The translations under genes and the position numbers were made by a program. Of a stretch of 64,000 nt of DNA, positions 1 to 15,217 are shown in pieces (position 1 is the stretch's first letter; every line of letters starts with the position of its first letter). The notes under the pieces were generated by a model. The model worked only from the letters and a program-made list of their open reading frames with translations. It was not told the origin of the DNA and searched no databases. Origin of the DNA: Aquimonas sp. (GTDB lineage Bacteria; Pseudomonadota; Gammaproteobacteria; Xanthomonadales; Xanthomonadaceae). Location of the stretch: the NCBI GenBank assembly GCA_022241605.1, contig JAKOMQ010000012.1:52806-116805 (forward strand), given 5' to 3'.

Positions 1-215
1 AGGCTGCAGAGGGTAGCCCAGCTGCATTGCCGCTGCGTGTTGGGAGGGCGCGTCGTCCATGCCGGCGAGCCCATTGCGCGCCTCAGGCGTCAGTCCGCCG
101 CGCCCAGCACCAGACGGCGCGCCCAGGCTTCGACGAGGGCCGCTTCCTCGCCGTGGGGATGCGCGGCGAAGCCGAGGTGCAGGTTTTCGTGGGCGAGGTC
201 CAGCACAGGGACCTA
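1..215 (-). pseudogene. Diverged duplicate of the yfaQ 3' end and its downstream flank
   Basis: Plus-strand bases 1-215 align with 8242-8444. Minus-strand reading of 90-215 gives ...DLAHENLHLGFAAHPHGEEAALVEAWARRLVLGAAD*, versus the real YfaQ C-terminus DLAHEYLHLGFAAHPHGEDEAFIEAWARRLVLGVAD*. Confidence 0.85.
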
Positions 216-668: not shown

Positions 669-1364
669 ATGCCCAGCTACCGTCTACAGCTCCTCATCGA
701 ACCGAAAGACCTCGAGGTCGTCCGCGCTTCTCAGCAGCGCATCACCCTTGCCAAGCCCGTCAGCAATGAGTCGCCGAACGTCGTCTGGCTGTCGATTGAT
801 CCCTTCCAGAGCACCGAGGTCCAGTGGGACGAGGAGTACGGTGTCTATGCCTCAACCACGGCGGTGCAGGAGGGCGCATCGATCACCAAGCTCTCGGAAA
901 CAGGAGTCCCCGCGCAAGACGGGTCGTACTACACCTTTACTCCAGGCGCGACGTTCACGGGCCCCTTTGCCGGCCAAGGAGTCGCCCGCGGCTCGTACGG
1001 GGCGCAGAACGACATGCCGTACAGCCAGTATCCAGTGCTCACGTTTGGCTTGACGCAGTCGGCACTGATCAATCAGAAGCCGGCCGAGCGCAAGCCGATC
1101 TCAGCAACTCCGGTGCTTGCGACTCAGTTCGCGAACATGACGCCGTTCTCCAACGTATTCATCTGGCTGCAGTCGCAGTTCGCCAGTGAGACGATCATCA
1201 CCAGGATCACCGGCCGCACCGCGAAAGCCAAGTTCGGCGGCGGCGTCAACGACATCGCGCTCAAGTACGACGCCTCGCTGGGCATGTTCGTGCCGTCTGC
1301 TGTTCAGGGCAAGGCGGTCAAGGAGACCGACGTCGTCGAACTGTCGATGCCGCTCATTGCCTGA
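669..1364 (+). CDS. Uncharacterised protein, paralogue of 2030..2671
   Basis: 231-aa ORF preceded by a GGAG RBS. Starts MPSYRLQLLIEPKDLEVVRASQQRITLAK..SPNVVWLSIDPFQSTEVQWDEEYGVYAS. No signal peptide seen. Confidence 0.8.
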   Translation: MPSYRLQLLIEPKDLEVVRASQQRITLAKPVSNESPNVVWLSIDPFQSTEVQWDEEYGVYASTTAVQEGASITKLSETGVPAQDGSYYTFTPGATFTGPFAGQGVARGSYGAQNDMPYSQYPVLTFGLTQSALINQKPAERKPISATPVLATQFANMTPFSNVFIWLQSQFASETIITRITGRTAKAKFGGGVNDIALKYDASLGMFVPSAVQGKAVKETDVVELSMPLIA

Positions 1365-1435
1365 CCAGCCCATGGCCGCCTGACACGCCGGTCAGGCGGC
1401 CCCCTCTTCCGGACACCTTCACTGGAGCATTCGCC

Positions 1436-1963
1436 ATGAAGACCCCGCATCAATCACTGTGCTGGCGCCACGCGTTCTGTGTGCTGCTGCTCACGAGCGT
1501 CGCCGCCGTATCGCCAGCGATTGCCCAGGTGTCAACCTGCGACGCACTCACGCTGTACGGCAACGCCTACAACGAAAAGCTCTGCAAGAGCCTCAGCCCG
1601 ACCACTCAGAACCACTGGGTCTGTGCCCTGACCGACGGCACGCGCGACATCCACACGACCTTCAACGCTCTCACACTGCTCCACCTGACGGTTCGGGACA
1701 ATCCCTCTCCGCCAGGGTGCACCGGTAACTCCACCCTCGGCGGCACTTGGCCAGGAAACCTGGTTATTGGAATGGGCCAGCCGGCGGTGGTGTGCGGCGT
1801 CAATGTGCAGAACTGGGTCGACCGGCTCAACGCTGTCAATCGGCTTCCTGCCAATGGTCAAACGTTCTGTCGCGCGGGCTTCCTGGCAGCACTCGCGAAT
1901 GGTGCCGATCCTGCTCTCATGCAGACGTACCTGAACACCTGCGCGGCGCAGGCCTGCCCCTAA
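1436..1963 (+). CDS. Secreted Cys-rich hypothetical protein
   Basis: 175 aa; N-terminal signal peptide (..FCVLLLTSVAAVSPAIAQ); eight Cys in the mature part. Confidence 0.8.
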   Translation: MKTPHQSLCWRHAFCVLLLTSVAAVSPAIAQVSTCDALTLYGNAYNEKLCKSLSPTTQNHWVCALTDGTRDIHTTFNALTLLHLTVRDNPSPPGCTGNSTLGGTWPGNLVIGMGQPAVVCGVNVQNWVDRLNAVNRLPANGQTFCRAGFLAALANGADPALMQTYLNTCAAQACP

Positions 1964-2029
1964 GCCGATCGGGTTCCCGGCCCGGTAATGCGAGCCGGGA
2001 GTCCCTTCGCGACCGGATGAGCTTGGATC

Positions 2030-2671
2030 ATGTCTTCGTACTCGATCAAAGTGCAGATTGCCGCCGACGACCTTGCGTCGCTACAGGCGGCAAACGAGCA
2101 GATCTTGCTCGTCAGACGGTTCCTCAATGCTGGCAGCCCTGTTGCGTGGGCAGTCGTCCCACTCGCACAGAATCACGTGATTGCTTGGAACGACGACTAT
2201 TCGCTGTTCGCTGGCGCCGGTGCCTCGCTCGGCAAGGTCGTCACCGTGAATAGCGCCACTGTCGCCACGATGAAGAGCCACTACACCTACACGGGGCTCG
2301 GATTTTCGTCCCCTGTGCCGGACGGCTTACTGCCGCCGGCAACCGTGCAGATACAGAACGTGGACAAGGCAAGCAACGCAATGGGCTTGGCCCAAACCTA
2401 TTCAGTTGACGGCGTGGGGGTTGCACAGCCCGTCCCAGTCAACGTTGAAAGTGTGCCTGCCAACCAGTACGCGCGGTTTACGGCCAGTCAAAGTCTGTGG
2501 ATCTATCTTGCCAGTGGGACCTCGACCGGCATGGTGGTGGTTGCACCGACGACGGCAGCGATGTCACCCAAAGCCTTTAGCGCCGCGCTGCTAGTCGACT
2601 TCGACACTGGCGCCGCGAGCCAAACGGTCCTCTACAGTGCCGCCCTCGGCCAGTTCGTCGCCAGCAGCTGA
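2030..2671 (+). CDS. Uncharacterised protein, paralogue of 669..1364
   Basis: 213 aa: MSSYSIKVQIAADDLASLQAANEQILLVRRFLNAGSPVAWAVVPLAQNHVIAWNDDYSLFAG. Shares the SY-x-I-x-DL-x-Q-I-L / SP-V-W / V-W-D-Y pattern with 669..1364. Confidence 0.8.
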   Translation: MSSYSIKVQIAADDLASLQAANEQILLVRRFLNAGSPVAWAVVPLAQNHVIAWNDDYSLFAGAGASLGKVVTVNSATVATMKSHYTYTGLGFSSPVPDGLLPPATVQIQNVDKASNAMGLAQTYSVDGVGVAQPVPVNVESVPANQYARFTASQSLWIYLASGTSTGMVVVAPTTAAMSPKAFSAALLVDFDTGAASQTVLYSAALGQFVASS

Positions 2672-3421
2672 GCCAGATAATGGAGATCCCGCCCGCACCC
2701 TGCTACGACGTTCGCCAGGTAGCACGGTCTCGACGTGCACCGCGCAATCAAGGCGATACCCGCCGCCGCGCTCGGTTGCGATCGCAGCGCGCAGGTCACC
2801 GAGCTTTCGCCTCAGGCGGGCTATCGTCACATCGACGCTACGCTCTCCGGCACTGTCGGCGTCGCGATGGGTCGCGGCCCAGAGTCGACTGCGCGTCAAC
2901 AGTGTTCGTGGCGAGCGAACCAGCGCGTGCAGTACCGCGCATTCGGTCGAGCTCAGCGCATGGCGCGTTCCGTCCGGGTGCTCAAAGCACCGCGCTGCGA
3001 CGCGAAAGCGACCGCCAAGAAGGACGTACTCGCTGCAGGCACCACTGCGGGCCAGCTCGGCACGCCGTTCGATGGAGCGCAGCCTGGCCAGAACCTCACG
3101 CGGTTGGTAGGGCGTCGTGAGGTAATCGTCGGCGCCCAGCTCAAGGGCGAGAATGCGATCGAGCGAATCATGGCTCGTATCGATCGCGATCACTGGGGCA
3201 GGAGTAAGCACCCGGACGCGGCGAAGTGCGTCAAGAGGAGAATCTGCCAGCAGCGCAAGCTGCACGACAATTGCATCCGCGCCTTGCCTCGAAACACGCC
3301 TCCAGAAGTCGACCGCGGTCTGCGCCTGACGAACCAGGAATCCACGCGAACCAAGATACGAGACCAGGCCTCGCTGCGCGGCGCCATCGGCTTCGAAGAC
3401 GATAAGTGTTCTTGACGGCAT
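2591..3421 (-). CDS. OmpR/PhoB-family winged-helix regulator with degenerate receiver domain
   Basis: MPSRTLIVFEADGAAQRGLVSYLGSRGF...LELGADDYLTTPYQPREVLARLR plus Trans_reg_C (SSTECAVLHALVRSPRTLLTRSRLW...VDVTIARLRRKLGD...GGGYRL). Start chosen at MPSRT. Confidence 0.85.
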   Translation of the reverse strand: MPSRTLIVFEADGAAQRGLVSYLGSRGFLVRQAQTAVDFWRRVSRQGADAIVVQLALLADSPLDALRRVRVLTPAPVIAIDTSHDSLDRILALELGADDYLTTPYQPREVLARLRSIERRAELARSGACSEYVLLGGRFRVAARCFEHPDGTRHALSSTECAVLHALVRSPRTLLTRSRLWAATHRDADSAGERSVDVTIARLRRKLGDLRAAIATERGGGYRLDCAVHVETVLPGERRSRVRAGSPLSGSAAGDELAEGGTVEDRLARGASVEVD

Positions 3422-3499
3422 CGCGATGTCCTTGCTTGGGGGCGGGAAGCTGCCCGTTCGGGAGGGGACAAACGCTAGCGCCATTGATGCGACCTGACT

Positions 3500-3525
3500 T
3501 TACGCGAACCTTACCGTTGCCTTAC
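3500..3525 (-). promoter_or_regulatory. Candidate OmpR/PhoB-type operator: three TTAC (GTAA on minus) half-sites at 11-bp period
   Basis: TTAC at 3500, 3511 and 3522 (ttacgcgaacc ttaccgttgcc ttacc), about 80-100 bp upstream of the regulator start at 3421. Confidence 0.5.
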
Positions 3526-3725
3526 CAGCGCCTGCAGGCTGAAAACCATGGACGCGTCGCTGGCGTATGGCCTGCGCTGCTTGTCAATCTTCGCCTTCTG
3601 GCCGATACCGCAAGTCGGACTGCAACCATGAGCAAGAAGGTTCGGGGGCCTGGCTCGACGTCAAACGGTCAACGCCGATTGCCATGGCGGACTCAGTTCC
3701 GAATCGCAACACGCTGTTCCAGGGC

Positions 3726-4130
3726 TTAGGCGAAGACTTCGTGAGGGGTGCTCCAGCCAAGCGTCTTTCGTAGCCGGCTGCGGATCCTGCGCTCCGTCTG
3801 CGTGAGCCGCTCGTCGCCAGCGGTCGCGAGGTCGTTGCCCCTGGGCGGGTAGTCGCGGATCAGCCCCTCGATACCCGGCCAGTGCGAAGGATCAATCCGC
3901 GGACGTCGGCTTGCCGGCCGACAGCGGTGCCGCGCCCGCGCGTGGGCCGGATCTGGGGCATACTCACAGCGCCCCGGTTGCGCCTGATCTCGCGACAGAT
4001 CGTGTTGGCCGACAGATTCATCCGTTTGCCGATCTCGCCCAAGCTCGGGCCGGCGTCGCGCAAGGGTGCGCGTCTGAGATCGATACGCTTCGTGCCGGTG
4101 TCCGGCGGACATGGGCAACGCCACCTGCAG
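3726..4130 (-). pseudogene. IS30-family transposase remnant (N-terminal HTH and C-terminal end, DDE core missing)
   Basis: One frame: LRDAGPSLGEIGKRMNLSANTICREIRRNRG. Another frame: IEGLIRDYPPRGNDLATAGDERLTQTERRIRSRLRKTLGWSTPHEVFA. These are IS30 N- and C-terminal signatures. Confidence 0.8.
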
Positions 4131-4209
4131 GCAGAGGAGCCCAGGCCACGTCATCTTGCCCGACACGCTTCGTAGCGATGTTGCGTTCCAGAGATGACCC
4201 CGCCAACAC

Positions 4210-7200
4210 ATGAGTACCTCAATGCATGTCGAAGATGGCCTTCCAGCGTTCTATCGGGTTGGTGATTGGGAGGTTCAACCAATGGATGGCGTCATCCGCT
4301 GTGATGGGAAGAGCTACACGCTTGAGCCGCGCGTGATGCAGCTGCTTGTCTACCTCTGTGATCGTGCGGGCCAGGTGATTAGCGCTGAACAACTGCTCGG
4401 CGACGTGTGGAAAGGAACCTTCTACGGTGACAATCCCGTTCACAAGTGCGTCGCGCTGGTGCGTCGTGCCCTTGGCGACGACGCTTCAGCCCCCCGCTAC
4501 ATCGAGACCTTGCGCAAGCGTGGCTACCGTCTGATCGCCCCAGTCGAGCGGGGAACTGAAGGGCGCCGCAGGCGGATCGACGATCCGATGGCGCAGTGGG
4601 CTAGACGCTGTCCGTATGTCGGCTTGGCCGCTTTCTCGAGCGATCAGTCGGCACTGTTTTGTGGTCGCAGGCAAGCCACCGAGGGATTGTTGGACGCAAT
4701 GCACCGGCAGCGTCGCGCCGGTCGTCAGTTTGTTCTGGTGCTTGGTCCGAGCGGGATCGGGAAGACCTCCCTCTTGCGAGCCGGTGTCGTACCGCGCCTG
4801 ATTGACTCAAAGGTATCGCCGGAACTGCGCGTTGCTCGTGTCCTCTGGGTGAACCTCCGTGACGTGCGATCGGGGCGCACGCTGACCGATCTCGTTGAGG
4901 CCAATTCTGAGTTCGCGCCCGTCGGTGATGCCGCAAGCGATGTCGCGGTGCTTGAGCGGCTCATCGTTATTGATAACCTCGAACTGTTGGTCCATGACGT
5001 GAGATGGCGAGATCAGCGCCTCGCGTTTGATACGGATCTTCGCCGACTCTGTGGCTCGCCCGGCATATTCGTCATGGCCATTGCGCGCAGTGATGCCTAT
5101 TCGGGGCTCGTTGAGGCCTTGCCCAGCCTGCTCAATCTGAAGTCTGGCGATGGTCAATTCGATGTTCCAGCGATCACTCGCGGCGAGATCGCCGAGATGA
5201 TACGCAGGCCGGCAAGGCTTGCCGGCCTTGAGTTCGAACTCGACTCAGAAACGCGGCTGCGACTCGATGATGCGTTGTGCAACGCTGCCGCAGAGCGGCC
5301 TGGCAGCCTGCCGCTACTCCAGGTCACGCTGCAAATGCTGTTCGAGCGGCGCGACGGGGCGCGCCTTCAGTTTTCCGCTTACGACGATATTGGCGGGCTG
5401 GACGGGGCAATTGCCCGGCAAGCCGAAGCGGTCTTCTCCAGGCTGGCTGCCGACGCCCAGGCTAGTCTTGCAAGCGTTCTTGGCAAACTCGTGCATGTCG
5501 ATGCCGAGGGCAATTTGCTGGGTGGTCGAGTTGTCCTGCGGGATACGATCGAATCTACGGCGGAATCCGCGCTGGTGGATGCATTGATCGAGGCGCGTTT
5601 GCTGGTCAGTGATCATCGATCAGGGGCACCTGTTTTTGCGCTGGCGCATGATGCTGTCATTCGGGAGTGGCCGCGTGCGCAGGCGTGGCTACGAGAAAAC
5701 AAGCGTCTTCTGAGCGCTCGTGCGCGACTTGCCGCCGCCGCCAGGCACTGGCACGACGGTGGGCGGCGTCCGGATCTCCTGTTGCCCGCTGGGGCGCAGC
5801 TCAACGAGGCAAGCGAGGTCGGATTGCGCATGGCCGACTCACTTGATCCCATCGAACAGCGCTACCTCAAGTGCTCGGGCCAGAGGGAGCGTCGCCTTCG
5901 CGCAGCCATCGCAAGTGGTGTTCTTGCTCTCATGCTGTGTGCGATTTCAGCGAGCGTTCTTTCGATTCTGGCCCAACGTGCAAATGAGATTGCAGAGCAG
6001 CGTCGTATCGAGGGGGAGCAGGTCGTGGACTTCCTGCTAGACGATCTCGCCAATCGCCTCCGCGACGTTGGCCGCCTCGACCTTCTCAACTCGGTGTCTG
6101 TCGAAGCCACGCGCTACCTTGACCGGGCGCGCGTTCCGGCGACCGCTGACCACGCTTTGCGACGCGTACGCGCGCTGCGCATCCTCACCGAAGTTAATGC
6201 CGGACGCGGTGAGCTGAGCGCCGCGTCCGATGCGATGGTCACGGCGCGCGAGTTGCTCGACGCGCTTGAGCCGGAGGTTGCGCGCTCCATGGCGTACCAG
6301 TTCGAGCTTGGGTCAGTGCTCTACTGGCAAGGCTACATCGCCCTGCAGCGCAACGATCCGGAGGCGGCGCGGGAAGCCTGGGAGGGTTATCGAGAAGCGG
6401 CCGAAAGAATGCTCGAAGCCGCGCCCGACGATACGACCTCGCGCCTGGAGATGTCCTATGCGCTGAACAATCTCGGGAACCTTGCATTGCGCGATCAGCG
6501 TGATCGCGAGGCCGAAGACTTCTTCATCCGATCCATCGAGATCAAGCGGGAGCTCTACGCTCAGCATCCTGACCGCCTCGATATCGGCGCTGACCTCGCC
6601 GACAGCATGTCGTGGTGGGGTAGTGCGCTTGAGCAGCGTGGAAGGCTCGACGACGCACTGCGACAGTTCACAGCCCAGCTCAGTCTGTTGCGGGCGGTGT
6701 CAAAACAGCGGCCCGAGGATCGTTTGTGGGATTACCGCCTGACCACCGCCCTCACGCAAAGCGCCACCGTACAGTTCGCGCTTGGGCAGGTGCCGGCGGC
6801 ACGCGAGGCGCTTACCGAGTCGGTCGATCGCTTGCGAACACTCGTACGAGCAGACCCGAGCAACCAATCATGGCGACGGGATCTGGTGGTCGCGGCCACC
6901 AGGCTTGGTTGGCTGGAAGCGACCGTTGGTCGACGCGATGCCGCATCAGCGGCGTTTGGCGTCGCCGATGCTGCCCTGCAAGACCTGCTGATGGCGCGTG
7001 AACGACCAGCGACGTGGCAGACGCTCGAATTGCGCCTGCGGCTGAAACGAGTTTTGTCGGAAACCATCGATCCTGAGCAGATCACAGGTGTCGAGCAAGC
7101 CGCGAGCCTCGTGTCATTTGCCGAGGCGCTTGGTCGGCGCTTTCCTCGCGATCAGGAGGTCCAGCTGGATCGGGCGCTGGCCCTGAACGTGTTGGCTCAC

Positions 7201-7440
7201 GTGACCGGCGAGCGTTCACACTTTGAGCAGGCGCTCGGCGTTCTGCAGCCCTGGCTCTACGTCGACTCAACTGGCTTGGCATCGGCGCGCGACGTGGACA
7301 CGCTCGCACTGCTGGCGCTTACGCTGAAAGGGCTCGGTCGTGAAGGCGACGCGGCGCACGTCCGTCAGCAGCTTGATGCGACCGGCCACCAAAGCCCGGC
7401 CCTGATCTGGCTTGAGTCGACCTTGCATGTGGGGTCATGA
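4210..7440 (+). CDS. Winged-helix (Trans_reg_C) - nSTAND1-like NTPase - TM - TPR protein
   Basis: wHTH: LEPRVMQLLVYLCDRAGQVISAEQLLGDVW..RKRGYRLIA. STAND: CPYVGLAAFSSDQSALFCGRR, P-loop GPSGIGKTSLLRAGV, IVIDNLELL. TM: IASGVLALMLCAISASVLSIL. C-terminal TPR-like helices. Confidence 0.9.
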   Translation: MSTSMHVEDGLPAFYRVGDWEVQPMDGVIRCDGKSYTLEPRVMQLLVYLCDRAGQVISAEQLLGDVWKGTFYGDNPVHKCVALVRRALGDDASAPRYIETLRKRGYRLIAPVERGTEGRRRRIDDPMAQWARRCPYVGLAAFSSDQSALFCGRRQATEGLLDAMHRQRRAGRQFVLVLGPSGIGKTSLLRAGVVPRLIDSKVSPELRVARVLWVNLRDVRSGRTLTDLVEANSEFAPVGDAASDVAVLERLIVIDNLELLVHDVRWRDQRLAFDTDLRRLCGSPGIFVMAIARSDAYSGLVEALPSLLNLKSGDGQFDVPAITRGEIAEMIRRPARLAGLEFELDSETRLRLDDALCNAAAERPGSLPLLQVTLQMLFERRDGARLQFSAYDDIGGLDGAIARQAEAVFSRLAADAQASLASVLGKLVHVDAEGNLLGGRVVLRDTIESTAESALVDALIEARLLVSDHRSGAPVFALAHDAVIREWPRAQAWLRENKRLLSARARLAAAARHWHDGGRRPDLLLPAGAQLNEASEVGLRMADSLDPIEQRYLKCSGQRERRLRAAIASGVLALMLCAISASVLSILAQRANEIAEQRRIEGEQVVDFLLDDLANRLRDVGRLDLLNSVSVEATRYLDRARVPATADHALRRVRALRILTEVNAGRGELSAASDAMVTARELLDALEPEVARSMAYQFELGSVLYWQGYIALQRNDPEAAREAWEGYREAAERMLEAAPDDTTSRLEMSYALNNLGNLALRDQRDREAEDFFIRSIEIKRELYAQHPDRLDIGADLADSMSWWGSALEQRGRLDDALRQFTAQLSLLRAVSKQRPEDRLWDYRLTTALTQSATVQFALGQVPAAREALTESVDRLRTLVRADPSNQSWRRDLVVAATRLGWLEATVGRRDAASAAFGVADAALQDLLMARERPATWQTLELRLRLKRVLSETIDPEQITGVEQAASLVSFAEALGRRFPRDQEVQLDRALALNVLAHVTGERSHFEQALGVLQPWLYVDSTGLASARDVDTLALLALTLKGLGREGDAAHVRQQLDATGHQSPALIWLESTLHVGS

Positions 7441-7487
7441 TGACCGGGGGCTACAATCCGTTCTCAACTACCCTGAAAGGACTTCGT

Positions 7488-7850
7488 ATGGAAACCCAGA
7501 AAATTGTCGTCTCACTTAGCGTGGCTCGCGTGGGTCACGGCGGAAACACCGGAAAAGGTCAGTATTTCTACAGCTTCGAACCCGAAAATATCCTCGTCGC
7601 AGACCCCGACACCGTCGTCGCCTTTGAGTTGAGTGACGATACCCCCGACGAGATCGAGATTTGGAAGATCGTTACCAGCAGTCCCGCACAGTTTCGGAAC
7701 GTGAAGTTCGGTAAGGGCCATAGGTCGGCAAGCCTCATCAACGCGAACACCGTTGAGCAGCTAATCTCGGTGTCCGTGCTCGTCACCGACAAGAAAGCCG
7801 ACGGCCGTGTCGTCAACTGCGACCCGCAAATGATCAACGTGCCGCGATAG
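7488..7850 (+). CDS. Small beta-rich protein, possibly DP-EP/DUF1888-like
   Basis: 120 aa: METQKIVVSLSVARVGHGG...YSFEPENILVADPDTVVAFELSDDTPDEIEIWKIVTSSP...NCDPQMINVPR. RBS gaaagga at about 7475. Family assignment is from memory only. Confidence 0.7.
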   Translation: METQKIVVSLSVARVGHGGNTGKGQYFYSFEPENILVADPDTVVAFELSDDTPDEIEIWKIVTSSPAQFRNVKFGKGHRSASLINANTVEQLISVSVLVTDKKADGRVVNCDPQMINVPR

Positions 7851-8171: not shown

Positions 8172-8322
8172 GAGCGGGAGCGGACGAATTCGGGTTTCTT
8201 GAAGAAGACCTGCACCGCAACGCGGCGCAAAGCGACTCTCGAGGCCGCAGAGCGTAGCCCAGCCACATGCAGGCTGCGTGTTGGCGCGGCGCTGCGCCAA
8301 GGCACGCGACGCGGTACCCGCC

Positions 8323-9951
8323 TCAGTCGGCCACGCCCAGCACCAGCCGCCGCGCCCAGGCCTCGATGAAGGCCTCGTCCTCGCCGTGGGGATGCGCGGC
8401 GAAGCCCAGGTGCAGGTATTCGTGGGCGAGGTCGAGGCGGTCCTGCAGGCTGCGCACGCCGCGCACGTGGATGCGGGCGCGGGCGCGGTCGACGTGCGGA
8501 TGGCCGCCCTGCAGGCGGCAAACCTCGAAGTCGCGGCGTTCGGCATAGCCGGGTTCGCTGCGCAGCTGCGGGCGCCAGCGCGGCAGCTGGGCCAGCAGCC
8601 AGTCGCGCGCGGCCGGCAGCGCCTCGCAGGCCGAGGCCGCGGCCTCCCAGCGGGCCAGGTCGGCCTGCGGAAAGGCCTCGCGCAGCAGGTCTAGGGTGCC
8701 GGCGCCCTTGCGCGCCGCGGCCACCGCCGGCTGCCAGCCGAACACGCCGGGGCCGCTCCGCCCCAGGTGGTAGCGCACCGGCATGCCGGCCAGCACCAGG
8801 CCCTCGCTGAAGGCGGCGATCTGCCGCGCCTGCAGGGACGGCGGCTGCGCCAGCACGCGCTGGGTGTGGCTGCTGTCTTCGATGCGCAGGCAGCTCGGGC
8901 CGGGCTGCGCCTGCTGCTGCAGATAGCTGCGCGCCAGCACGGCCAGCGCGCGCGCGGCCGCCAGCGGCTGCAGCGCGCCCTCGCGCTCGACCACCCGCGC
9001 CACGTAGTCCTCGCGCGGGATGCGGGCGATCAGGCGCGGGCCGGCGTCGAGCACGATCTCGCCGCGCGATTCGATCTCGAAGCGGCTGCCGTGTTCGAAC
9101 TGCAGGCGGTAGCGGCCGTGCAGGGCGCCGGCTGCAGCGGCCGGCTCGATCGCGGCGATGGGATAGCGGGCGAACAGTTCCACCTCGACGCAGCCGCCGG
9201 CATCCAGCGAGGCCGGCGGCGGCAGCCAGCGCGCCAGCGCGGCGGCATGGGCCAGCAGCAGGCCGCGGCTGGTGCCGGCACCCTGCGCCCACAGCGCGCG
9301 GCCCTGGCTGTCCCAGCCGGCAAAGCCGCCGATGCGGTCGTGCACGTCTTCGCCGCGGTGCCAGCTCCAGGTCTTGATGCGCAGGCCGGCGCCGAGCGCC
9401 TCGAACACCGCAGGCGGCTGCTGCAGGCTGGCGGCGGCCAGCACCCGCTGCAGCTCTGCGCGGGCCGGCAGGCGCTGCAGCAGGTCGAGCAGGGCCGCGA
9501 CCTCGACCTGCGTCTGCGGCTGCAGCGCATCGAGCCGGGTCAGCGCGGGCGGTGCGCCCAGCGCGCGCCAGTAGTCGCCCCAGTCGGCGGCATCGATGCC
9601 CAGCCGGTCGGCCTCGAAGTAGCGCCCGCAGGAGCGCAGCAGGGCCTCTTCGGCGTCGATCGAGGCGCCGGCGGCGCAGCAGTAGACCTCCTCGGGGTCG
9701 CCGCCGCGGCAGCGGTAGTCGGGTGGCTGCTGTCCGCGATCCAGCAGATAGGCCTGCACCAGCAGCTTCCACAGGCTGCCCAGCGGCGCGCGCTCGACCT
9801 CGGCCGCTGCCAGCCGCTGCGCCGGGGCATTCGCCGGCAGCCGCCAGTGCTCGATGCCCTGGGCGGTGTGCACCGATACCTGCAGCCCGAATGCCGGCCC
9901 CGCGCACAGGGCCAGCAGCATGCCGAGCAGGCGATGTACGACGGAGTTCAC
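8323..9951 (-). CDS. yfaQ: YfaQ-like (DUF2300) protein with SpoIID-like segment and C-terminal HExxH
   Basis: Signal peptide; SpoIID-like RIPREDYVARVVEREGALQPLAAARALAVLARSYL; DLAHEYLHLGF. Directly follows yfaS. Confidence 0.75.
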   Translation of the reverse strand: MNSVVHRLLGMLLALCAGPAFGLQVSVHTAQGIEHWRLPANAPAQRLAAAEVERAPLGSLWKLLVQAYLLDRGQQPPDYRCRGGDPEEVYCCAAGASIDAEEALLRSCGRYFEADRLGIDAADWGDYWRALGAPPALTRLDALQPQTQVEVAALLDLLQRLPARAELQRVLAAASLQQPPAVFEALGAGLRIKTWSWHRGEDVHDRIGGFAGWDSQGRALWAQGAGTSRGLLLAHAAALARWLPPPASLDAGGCVEVELFARYPIAAIEPAAAAGALHGRYRLQFEHGSRFEIESRGEIVLDAGPRLIARIPREDYVARVVEREGALQPLAAARALAVLARSYLQQQAQPGPSCLRIEDSSHTQRVLAQPPSLQARQIAAFSEGLVLAGMPVRYHLGRSGPGVFGWQPAVAAARKGAGTLDLLREAFPQADLARWEAAASACEALPAARDWLLAQLPRWRPQLRSEPGYAERRDFEVCRLQGGHPHVDRARARIHVRGVRSLQDRLDLAHEYLHLGFAAHPHGEDEAFIEAWARRLVLGVAD

Positions 9952-12900
9952 TCCTCGACCCGCATCCGCGCCCAGAGGGGCTGGGCCTCGAAGCTCTGCT
10001 GCTCGGGCTGGTACATGCGCGAGTAGCGCACCGGCGGCAGGCTGAACTCGCCGCGCTGCGAGAAGCGCACCAGATGAGCGAACACCTGGCGCCCGCTCAG
10101 GCTGTCCAGCGGCAGCGCGTAGCTGAGCTGGCCGGGCTCGTGGCGGGCGCGCTCCAGCGCCGGCGCCTGCGCTTCGCCGGGCGCGCGCAGCAGGCTCAGG
10201 CCCCAGGTGGTGCGCTCCACATCGGCGCCCGGCGGCAGCGGCACCTCCAGCAGGCCGTGGCGCAGGGCGCGGGCGCTGCCGGCGTCGAGGCGGATCTCAT
10301 CGAGGTAGAGCGCGCCGGACGACAGCGCGGCGCCGGCCGGCACAGGCTCCAGCTGGAACTGCAGGGCTTCGTCGGTGGGACGCAGCCGCCACAGCCGGCG
10401 TTCGATCCGCGGGCTGGCCTCGGCGGCGGCGGCAGGCAGCAGGCTGTCGTAGTCCAGCCGCGCGACCACGGCCGCGGCCGGCAGCCGGTCCAGCAGCAGC
10501 TCGGCGGGCGGCTCGGCGCCCTGCCAGCGCCAGCGCGGCAGCAGGCCGTGATCGGTGTTGCGCACCCAGCCCGGGCCGGGCTCGATGCCGTCGACCGCGG
10601 CCGCGTCGCCGGCGGCCGGCGCCAGCCAGGCCAGGGCCAGCGCGCGCTCCAGCGTCGACTGTTCGGGCGCCAGCGCCTGCAGCAGGGCGGCGGCCTCGCC
10701 GGCAGCGGCGCTGCCGATGCGCAGCCGCAGGGCGCTGGCGAAGGGCAGGGCGCTGGCGGCCAGCCGCGCCTCGGCCCCGGCGCGCGCCTGCTGCAGCGCG
10801 GCCGGTGCGGCAAGGCGCTGCTCCTCGGCCAGCTTCAGGCCCAGCAGCAGGGCGGCGTCGGCGGCCAGCGCGCTGTGCGGCGCGGCCAGCACCAGACTGT
10901 CGCGCAGGCCGGGCTCGGGCTCGCGGTCTGGGCCGCGGGCAGCGAGCGCCTGCAGCGCGCCATCGAGCAGGCTGCGGGTGGGCAGGCCGACCGCGGCCGC
11001 AAACTCCAGCACCAGCAGCCGCTGCAGCGGCGGCAGCTGGCCGGCCTGCTGGGCGTAGAGCTCCAGCACCGGCGCGAAGTGGTCGGGCGGCAGGGAAATG
11101 CCCAGCGCGCGGCTGGCGTGGTGGTCGGCGTAGTAGGCATAGGCGGTGAGGAAGGCATCGCCGCTGCCCTCTCCACCCCACCAGCCGAACTGCGCCTGCG
11201 GCCCGGCCAGATGCATCAGCCGCAGGCGGCCCTGCGCCATCACCAGGCGCAGGCGGTCACGGCTGGCCTCGGGCAGGTCGGCCAGCGCCGGCCAGCTGAG
11301 CGCCAGCGGCAGCAGGCGGCTGGCGGTCTGCTCCACGCAGCCCCAGGGGTAGTCGATCAGGCTGTCCAGCGCCGTGCGGAACAGCGCCGCCGGCCCGGCC
11401 GCCAAACTGAGCTCGATGCCGCTGGCATCCGCCGGCAGGGCCAGCGCGGTCTGCGCGGAGTCGATCCGCAGGCTCTGGCCGAAGCGCTCGCGCCATTCGG
11501 CCGGCAGCGCCTTCAGGTCGATCTCCAGCGCATCGGCCTGGGCGCCCTGCACCCACAGCCGTGCCTGCACGCGGGTGGCGGTGGCCAGGATCGGCGCATC
11601 CAGCGGCAGGTACTGCACGCCCGGCACCAGCGCATGCGCGCGGCGGAACGTCTGCGGCCCGACGGCGCCCTGCGCCTGCCAGCGGATCTCCAGCTCGGCC
11701 TCCACCGCCGCGCCCTGGTTGAAGGCCAGCAGGCCCAGCTGCGGGTGGTCGCCCTGGCGGAACTGCTGCGGGCCGGTCCACTTCAGGTACAGCGGCTGCT
11801 CGGAGCGCAGGTGCGCCAGCCGCTGGCCGACCCGGAACTCGCCTTTGAGACTTTGCGCGCGCGCGCTGACCCGCCAGCGCGTCAGCGAATCGGGCATGCG
11901 GAACTCCAGCACCGCGCGGCCCTCGGCGTCGGTGAGCAGATCCGGCGCCCAGGCCGCGGTGTCGACGTCTTCGCGGCGCGGCCGCTCCAGCACCTTGACC
12001 CCGCGCTCGCTGCGGTTGCCGGCCGGCGGCGGCCGCGGCCGGCCGGGCAGGGCCACGTCGTAGCCGATGAAGGACAGGCTGGCGCCGGTGCGCACGTTGT
12101 TGCGACGCGGGTGGAAGAAGAACTCGCCGATGCCCGGCGCCAGCTCCGGCTGCAGGGCGTAGATCATTTCGTCGACCACCGACACCGCCAGCCGCGCTGG
12201 CTGCGGGCGGCCGTCCAGACGGGTCTGGAAGTGCAGGCGCACGGTCTCGCCGGGGCGGTAGACCTCGCGCTCGGGGCGGATATCCACCTCGATCTCGGGC
12301 ATGGCGACCTTCAGCCCGGCCACCTCGAAGGCGTAGTCGCCGCCGCGGGTGTACAGGGCTGACAGGCTGAGGTTGGGTGCGTGCGCGCGCTGCACCGGGA
12401 TACGCAGGCGGTACTGCGCGTCGTCGATCCGCTCGATCGTGAGCCAGTCGGCGCCGCGGCTGAGCAGGGCGACCTGCTCGACACGGTCGCGCTCCAGGCT
12501 GAGCAGGGCCTCCTCGACCGGCTCCGGGAAGCTCAGCAGGGCCTCCGCCACCTCGCCCTCGCGGTAGTCGGCGCGGTCGAAGGTGATCGCCACGGTGCCG
12601 GCGCGGGCGCGCAGGCCCTCGCCGCCGACCACATGGCCGGTGGCGCCGAGCAGGCGGCCGTCGACGTCCAGCAGCTGCAGGCTGTAGTTGCCGCTGCGCG
12701 CAAAGCGATGGCTGAAGCCGTCGGCCCCGATCGCGCCTTCGCCGCGGCTGCGGTCGTCCAGCCGCAGCCAGGCGTAGCGCGCCGGTGCGCCGGCGTCGTC
12801 GCCGGCGACCTGGCGGAAGCCGAAGCGCACGCTCTCGCCGGCCTGGCTGAAGCGTGCGGGTGCAGTCAGACGGTACTGGGCGGCGCCGCGCTCGATCAGG

Positions 12901-14531
12901 ATTTCCTGCGTGCTGCGCACCCGGTAGGCGGCGCCGTCGCTGGCGAAGATCGTCAGCAGGTAGCGGCTGGGCTGCTCGCTGGGCGGCAGGCTGAAGCGGG
13001 CGCGGCCGCGCGCATCGGTGCGCAGCTCGGACACGCCCAGCGTCACCGGGAACTGGCCGAGGTAGGCCAGCTCGTGGCCGACCGTGCCGAGGTGCTGGGC
13101 GCGCAGGCCGAGCTCGATGCGGGCGTCGCGCACCGGGCTGCCGTCTGGGTAGACCAGGTCCAGGCTGCCCTCGATGGCGCGCCCGCTGCGCGGCTTCGGA
13201 TCGTCCAGCTGCATCACGATCTCGAAGTGCGGCTTGACGTAGTCGGCGACCCGAAAGGCTGCGCTGTAGACGCCGCCGCCGTAGACCATGCGCAGCTCAT
13301 AGCCGCCGGCCACCGCACCCGGCGGCAGCCGGAAGCGGGTGTCGGCGCCGCGCTCGCCGGAAAACTGCAGGCGCTGCTGCTCGATCTCGCTGCCGGCAGC
13401 GTCCACCACCACCAGCTGCAGCGGGCCGTCGGCGGCGCGCACCGAGGCCAGCGCGTCCTTGAACTCGCGCGCGGCGATGCGCACCTGCACCAGGTCGCCG
13501 GGGCGATAGAGCGGGCGGTCGGTGAAGGCGTAGACCTTGGTGTCGTGGATCTCGCTTTCGTAGAAGAAATTCTCCGAGATGAACACGCCGCCGGCCGGAT
13601 CGCGGCCCAGCACGTAGCTGCGCTCGGGGCTGTGCTGACGCAGCCGCAGCAGGCCATCGGCGTCGCTGCGGCCGCGGCCGAGCAGGCCGACGCCGTCGCT
13701 CCACAGCAGCTCGGCGCCGGCCACCGCGCGGCCGCTGGCCTTGTCGGCGGTCCACACCAGCAGCTCGCCGCCGGCGATCTTGGTCACCGCTACGGTGTCG
13801 GAGACGAACAGCGCGGTGGTCGCGCGGTAGCGGCCGACGATGGCCTCCACCAGGTACAGCCCGGGCGCGCGCTGGCCCAGCGGGATCTCCACGTTGCCGG
13901 GCTTGGCGCCCATGAAATGGCTGGACGAGCCGGCCAGTTCAGTGCCCTCCGGCGGCTGGATCGGCTGGGCCTCCCACAGCGGGTAGCGGAACTCGTCGAC
14001 CAGCGGCAAGCCGGGGATCGGCGCGAACTGCAGCGGCGCATCGAAGCGGGTCGGCTCGCGCAGGGTCTCGCCCAGGCTCAGCTCGGGCAGGCTGCGCACC
14101 AGCTCGCCGCGCGCCGGCGCGGCGAAGCTGCGCTGCATGGCGCGCCGGGATTCGCGGTACCAGCGGTCCCACAGGAAGGCCAGCGCGTTCGACAGGCCCT
14201 CGCCCTGGAAGGCCGCCTCCACCCGGATCCGGTGCAGGTTGGGCTGGCGCTGCAGGAAGGCCAGCGGGTCATCGATGCGGTAGACGCGGATGTCGACGCC
14301 GCCGTAAGGCTCCATGGCGAAGCGACGCCAGTCGCGGCCCGGGGCCTCCAGCCGCACCCGCGCCTGCTCGGCGCTGCCGAAGTTGCTGTCGGCCAGCAGG
14401 AAGAACTGCTCGCCCTCGATCGGCGCATGTCCGCTGGACGGCACGTCATCGGCCGGCTGCGCCGCGGCCAGGCCGCAGGCTAGGACGAACAAACCGAACC
14501 CGCGTCGGAGCGTTGTCAGACAGGCGCTCAT
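9948..14531 (-). CDS. yfaS: Bacterial alpha-2-macroglobulin family protein with thioester motif
   Basis: Large secreted protein: macroglobulin repeats ([38 protein letters not shown]), bait/ANA-type segment, thioester [16 protein letters not shown]. Confidence 0.93.
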
Positions 14532-15217
14532 GCGGCCAGCCAGTGCAGGCGGAACAGGCCCACGAAGTTGGGGTTGTGCGGCTCGGGCAGCCAGCGCGTG
14601 TCCTTCCATTGCATGAGCTCCGTGAGGCGCAGGCTGCGCAGTCCGTTGTCCTGCGGGCTGCTGCTGCCGGTGTGGTAGGCGATGCCGCGGCCGGTCCAGA
14701 TCATCAGGTGCTGGTCATCGCCCTGGTCGTAGAACAGCAGGTCGGCGGGCTCGGCCTGGCGCAGCTCGCGGGCCAGCGGCCGGCTGTTGAAGGCGATCAT
14801 CCGGGCGGCGGTGACGAAAGGGCCGAAGCTGCCGTCGCCCTGCGCCCAGTGCCGCGCCAGCAGGCGCTGCTGCGCGCTGATGTCCAACTCCGGCGGCAGG
14901 CTGCTGGCGTCCATGCGCATGGCCCGCAGCCAGGCGGCGTCGTGCACGCGCAGGGCCTCGTTGGCGGCAAAACGCACCAGGCCGGCGCAGTCGCGCTGGT
15001 GCCAGCGCGGGCTGGGGCCCTGCCGCAGCTGCTCGTGGACGATGCGCAGGAACCAGGCGCGGAAGCGGCGGCTCTGCTCGGCGTCCAGCGCCGGCACCGC
15101 GGCGGTGTCGAAGGCCTGCGCTGGCTCCAGGTCGCCCGGCGCGGATGCACCCGCCGCTGGCAGCCAGGCCGCGAGCGGCAGCGCCGACAGCAGGCCCAAT
15201 AGATCGCGCCGCTTCAT
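14528..15217 (-). CDS. yfaT: YfaT-like (DUF1175) protein
   Basis: Start [34 protein letters not shown]..., [26 protein letters not shown]. Stop overlaps the yfaS start by 4 nt. Confidence 0.8.

Follow-up and report, generated by a model that had tools for sequence, protein, structure and literature searches.

A candidate signalling module of Aquimonas sp. with a membrane STAND regulator, a predicted DP-EP-fold partner and an undescribed protein family

An island of low GC in the genome of Aquimonas sp. carries six genes, one of which encodes a 1076-aa protein with a winged helix (wHTH), a STAND NTPase, a transmembrane (TM) helix and TPRs. The question raised by this locus is whether the six genes are one unit or a chance cluster and, if they are a unit, what such a unit may do. 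The window, i.e., the whole stretch of DNA that was analysed, comprises 64,000 nucleotides of the contig JAKOMQ010000012.1. In our study, the six-gene set was found to be conserved, and the genes are therefore not clustered by chance but make up a real regulated unit. On balance, we consider it probable that the six genes are one signalling module, composed of a membrane-tethered STAND transcription switch, a partner of the DP-EP fold and a likely target, A-Cys-B.

The genes and their island

The features of the locus were the following.

Paralogue A: 669..1364, + strand, 231 aa, member of an undescribed all-beta family
Cys: 1436..1963, + strand, 175 aa, secreted protein with a Sec leader and with its eight cysteines invariant
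Paralogue B: 2030..2671, + strand, 213 aa, member of the family of A
RR: 2591..3484, - strand, OmpR-type pseudo-response regulator, convergent with B, recognised by Pfam and by alignment with PhoB and orthologues
IS30-type transposase remnant: 3726..4211, - strand, degenerate, between RR and STAND, with HTH_38 in 3863-4063
STAND: 4210..7440, + strand, 1076 aa, wHTH-nSTAND1-TM-TPR protein, recognised by Pfam, Walker A/B motifs and the TM helix
STAND winged helix: 4306..4533, + strand, aa 33-108, OmpR/CadC-type, Trans_reg_C
STAND nSTAND1 NTPase: 4612..5772, + strand, aa 135-521, Walker A at aa 179
STAND single transmembrane helix: 5908..5970, + strand, about aa 567-587, followed by the juxtamembrane block
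b120: 7488..7850, + strand, 120-aa beta-sandwich, predicted SO1698/DP-EP fold, C-terminal CDPQ motif

The ORF coordinates given in the preliminary description were all correct, and its observation was confirmed. For each of the six genes, comparison with the orthologue in another family put dN/dS well under 1 (0.15/0.84 for A and 0.66/1.40 for STAND), and the six ORFs are therefore real genes, kept by purifying selection. A and B, which had been called paralogues, showed 25% identity, and B retrieved A with an E of 6.7e-9. Cys, which had been described as a secreted protein with eight cysteines, was found to contain a Sec-type leader, and all eight cysteines were invariant in four orthologues; no PDB or Pfam family match was found for this protein. 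The presence of a degenerate IS30 remnant was supported by an HTH_38 match (E 6e-7).

RR had been described as an OmpR-type regulator with an altered receiver, and Trans_reg_C and Response_reg matches and the alignment with PhoB agreed with this. In the PhoB alignment, the receiver set of the acidic pair, phospho-Asp, Thr and Lys was incomplete. In the RR of the window, the phospho-acceptor Asp is replaced by Gln and the Lys by Thr, and the acidic pocket has Phe/Glu/Ala. In the orthologues (n=4) the phospho-acceptor Asp was kept and the Lys was also missing. Judged from these residues, the receiver is degenerate. The RR gene overlaps B by 81 nt; its ORF is present where it had been placed, but the start at 3484 is probably wrong and that at 3421, where the orthologues start, is probably the correct one.

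The island is flanked by two copies of the end of one gene. The left flank (1..203) is a degraded copy of the 3' end of a DUF2300 gene, and the right flank (8242..8436) contains the DUF2300 3' end as the other repeat copy. The direct repeats pair 87-203 with 8320-8436 (89%) and 1-68 with 8242-8309 (74%). The GC of the island was 0.62 against 0.74 in the right flank. On the - strand, at 8323-14609, the DUF2300/SpoIID-like gene adjoins a large alpha-2-macroglobulin-like gene (YfaQ/YfaS type), and this pair is likely the host backbone. In a genome of the same genus the DUF2300 and alpha-2-macroglobulin-like genes were present and the island genes were absent in the stretch read.

Gene neighbourhoods and the A/B family

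Co-occurrence of the genes in other genomes had been set beforehand as the decisive check, and its outcome was favourable, the six families being found together in Tahibacter-type genomes. SCN 69-320 and Tahibacter harae, which belong to another family of the same order, contained all six genes in one block, with b120-STAND on one strand and a divergent A-Cys-B that is convergent on RR. In T. caeni, one contig carried A-Cys-B-RR; another had a second A gene together with b120 and broke off immediately 5' of b120, at the place expected for STAND. In Rudaea, A-B-RR were kept together and STAND-b120 was on a different contig. The window has the same six-gene set, with STAND-b120 located beyond RR and the IS30 remnant between, and its module looks rearranged relative to the Tahibacter order. 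A circular permutation as the way from the Tahibacter order to that of the window was rejected on the orientations, which it cannot account for; the change requires an inversion or translocation. In a sample of the order, A/B were present in 8 of 399 genomes and b120 relatives in 49 of 399, and seven of the eight A/B-positive genomes contained b120 (hypergeometric P 2e-6, a statistic that ignores kinship).

In 20/20 fetched loci, which had been selected by a b120 match and in some of which the annotated ORF starts overlap, b120 came immediately 3' of a wHTH-nSTAND1-TPR gene and shared its strand. Most STAND-b120 pairs had no A/B nearby. A search from the STAND side gave some homologues without an obvious b120; with a rebuilt b120 profile, a diverged b120 was found after several of these, not all, and none was detectable at the STAND homologue loci L118, L119, L125, and L129. 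In two genomes of another family, a Cys orthologue was present immediately after STAND-b120, convergent and without A/B, and Cys is thus tied to the switch independently of A/B. The co-occurrence of the six families upholds the undescribed regulated module that had been proposed, but the module is layered and not uniform. STAND and b120 are a widespread old pair, the core, and A/B (with RR) are a rarer mobile add-on, which is also found in unrelated settings.

Upstream of A, a block CACTATGTTACATG was common to three Tahibacter-type genomes (L023, L024, and L025) and absent from the window; it is a candidate promoter or operator. The search for an operator upstream of A gave no motif common to the window and its relatives above shuffles.

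The A/B family is undescribed and patchily spread. The orthologues of A were 62-80% identical in Tahibacter, Rudaea, and Rhizobiales and about 30-40% identical in Bacteroidota; relatives of A/B were present in Rhizobiales, Bacteroidota, one cyanobacterium, and two plasmids, often with two per locus. No Pfam, NCBIfam or PHROG match was found for A/B. The AF2 model of A, built from 34 sequences, had a pLDDT of 93.8. A known fold for A/B was rejected, as neither the PDB sequence profile nor Foldseek against PDB and BFVD gave anything significant (none with E < 0.1). In Chitinophaga, A-family genes occur inside TOMM kinase/cyclase (TIGR03903) and SagD-type clusters; unlike those clusters, the six genes of the window include no YcaO or TOMM gene. 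In a MAG of the Gammaproteobacteria, an A-family gene was also found near a kinase-TPR gene.

The partners of the A-family genes lead to another reading, in which the work of the module is done by A/B and Cys, either as proteins for export, the surface or antagonism or as helpers of peptide natural-product clusters, and STAND-b120 is only one of several regulators that they have recruited. This reading, which we regard as doubtful, is favoured by the occurrence of A-family genes with other signal proteins and secreted partners in Chitinophaga, Rhizobiales, and the gammaproteobacterial MAG. However, A and B were devoid of signal peptides, the fold search gave no biochemical clue, and the two genomes in which Cys accompanies STAND-b120 without A/B indicate that part of the Cys link is to the switch.

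Several other features were observed around the A-family genes. In Chitinophaga, the A-family TOMM kinase/cyclase and SagD-type clusters at L051, L052, and L057 carry an NHLP-type precursor (L051 tested, the others by eye), and at L053 (10714-11736) the protein after the A gene ends in a phage tail-collar-like part (by eye; no Pfam match). In the Rhizobiales loci L043 and L044 the neighbours of the A-family gene are a secreted trypsin-like protease and a recombinase of the resolvase type. On an Alicyclobacillus plasmid (L037, 6336-8267), the A-family gene appears to be interrupted by an IS200/IS605 element that carries tnpB.

The STAND protein and b120

The wHTH-STAND-TM-TPR architecture that had been proposed for the 1076-aa protein held in all its parts. 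Pfam placed Trans_reg_C at aa 33-108 (E 3e-17) and nSTAND1 (PF20703) at aa 135-521 (E 2e-77), and the NTPase motifs were intact (Walker A GPSGIGKT at aa 179; Walker B LIVIDNLE). Hydropathy gave a single TM helix at about aa 567-587, followed by the TPRs. The N-terminal flank of the helix is K/R-rich, with 5 positive residues and 1 negative residue, and fits a predicted N-inside orientation; the TPR region is predicted to lie outside the membrane. The juxtamembrane block after the TM helix is common to the STAND, kinase and TIR versions, which suggests interchangeable cytoplasmic outputs on one outer TPR region. By analogy, a nucleotide-dependent oligomeric switching of STAND is putative.

Like CadC/ToxR, STAND contains an N-terminal OmpR-type winged helix, a single TM helix, and a C-terminal part predicted outside; unlike in these, an nSTAND1 NTPase separates the winged helix from the TM helix, and the sensor is TPR. 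CadC was the best NCBIfam match of the winged helix (E 2e-20), but its score of 73 bits is far below the cut-off of 400 bits. AfsR contains an OmpR-type DNA-binding domain, STAND and TPR, and is activated by ATP (PMC10936776). STAND resembles AfsR (SARP) and MalT in the presence of a DNA-binding domain, a STAND NTPase, and TPR, whereas a TM helix splits its NTPase from its TPR and a DP-EP-fold gene follows. AfsR also carries a BTA domain, for which STAND gave no Pfam match (BTAD). The described AfsR and MalT activators are soluble.

The product of the gene that follows, b120, had been called beta-rich. It is indeed a beta-sandwich, but the label was too vague, as the SO1698/DP-EP fold is identifiable. 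The AF2 model of b120 (pLDDT 75.6, built from three sequences) matched SO1698 of Shewanella over the whole length (Foldseek E 2e-9, TM 0.72), and, on this model, b120 has the self-cleaving peptidase fold of SO1698 (DP-EP, DUF1888, PF08985). The b120 of the window had no Pfam DP-EP match above the cut-off; nine of 24 b120 relatives matched PF08985 (best E 2e-5). Asp112-Pro113 was invariant across the 24-member alignment, and the DPQxxNxP tail is the same in SO1698, with which it aligned at the DPQ. The beta-sandwich also resembles MakC/MakD of Vibrio cholerae and the PixA inclusion-body fold (6tct, E 2e-5; 4lzk, E about 1e-3), a likeness at the fold level only: MakC/MakD, unlike b120, are toxin-operon accessory proteins and are not described beside STAND. 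MakD is intracellular (PMC11484084).

True PF08985 genes were also found directly after wHTH-nSTAND1 genes in three further genomes, from other families of the class, and one of them is clearly homologous to SO1698 (E 5e-30). Diverged b120 relatives, retrieved with the rebuilt profile, follow TIR-TM-TPR and kinase-TM-TPR genes, some of these matches being weak (E 1e-3 to 1e-5). At the loci L110-L113, diverged DP-EP-like genes with a CDPxIxN end come after the TIR-TM-TPR genes.

SO1698 is known, also from its PDB titles, to cleave itself, and Asp37 and Lys98 are its catalytic residues. By the same route b120 might be an autoproteolytic brake or signal, in which cleavage at Asp112-Pro113 would free the C-terminal strand and gate the receptor. 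The fold match and the invariant Asp-Pro are in favour of this, as are the deposited SO1698 mutants (PDB), which include D116A and P117A. In the sequence alignment, however, D37 and K98 are not kept in b120, where Asn/Ser/Ile occupy the aligned columns; the known chemistry may therefore be absent from b120, and we hold this role to be possible rather than probable. The same two residues were likewise not conserved in several PF08985 members. A broader proposal, which we put forward as unlikely, is that DP-EP-fold proteins are dedicated partners of membrane receptors that have the juxtamembrane block and the outer TPR in common and a swapped cytoplasmic part (winged helix-STAND, TIR or Ser/Thr kinase), with Asp-Pro processing gating the receptor. 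Such gating would be a bacterial parallel to the FIIND/ZU5 domains of NLRP1 and PIDD1, which are autoproteolytic beta-sandwiches.

Function of the module

As the output domain of STAND is a winged helix, the protein is most simply read as a membrane-tethered transcription switch, with anchoring of the CadC type and STAND activation of the AfsR/MalT type. In this switch, the winged helix and the nSTAND1 NTPase would be cytoplasmic and the TPR beyond the single TM helix would be the sensor. On binding a ligand and loading ATP, STAND would oligomerise, and its winged helices would be brought together on DNA in the manner of CadC/ToxR and AfsR/MalT. b120 probably acts on or with the receptor, as an inhibitor, an adaptor or a processed signal; a direct TPR-b120 contact is not obvious, because no signal peptide is visible in b120 and the TPR region is predicted outside. 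The likely target would be the A-Cys-B operon, which is divergent from STAND in Tahibacter, and RR, with its pseudo-receiver, may add a phosphorylation-independent control.

The preliminary description had called a regulated effector module plausible, as STAND NTPases often are switches of conflict or signalling systems. In a conflict role, STAND would be an anti-phage immune receptor, the TPR or b120 would sense a component of the invader, and A/B or Cys would be the effectors. Conflict systems, in which nSTAND1 has been named (PMC8195603), often contain STAND NTPases and proteins of the TIR-TPR and kinase-TPR types; the b120 relatives after TIR-TM-TPR and kinase-TM-TPR genes and the patchy distribution, on an island, would also suit such a receptor. 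Nevertheless, PADLOC matched none of the genes, the module has no adjacent phage genes, A/B have no PHROG match, and at the N-terminus STAND has a DNA-binding winged helix in place of a nuclease, TIR or protease. The DNA-binding output domain points to transcriptional signalling, the conflict role was not borne out, and we judge an immune receptor improbable. A chance aggregate of unrelated genes, for which the low GC of the island, the IS30 remnant, the flank duplication and some gene pairs that are unlinked elsewhere might be cited, is contradicted by the synteny, i.e., the clustering of the gene set in the genomes of another family and the constant STAND-b120 adjacency, and its probability is close to negligible.

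The module consists of known parts (STAND, wHTH, TPR, and the DP-EP fold) in a combination for which no description was found, together with the undescribed A/B family. DP-EP with STAND genes is not mentioned in PMC7159879 or PMC8195603, and no paper on the DP-EP or SO1698 family was found in the open-licence literature, a scope that makes this absence weak evidence. The module offers a STAND regulator that is compact, bound to the membrane and next to a candidate target operon, and A/B are an undescribed protein family whose confident model matched no fold in PDB or BFVD. For SO1698/DUF1888, crystal structures and a self-cleavage chemistry have been described, but no biological context was found in the literature searched. 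The gene neighbourhoods give it such a context, as a companion of membrane STAND, and probably also of TIR and kinase, TPR receptors.
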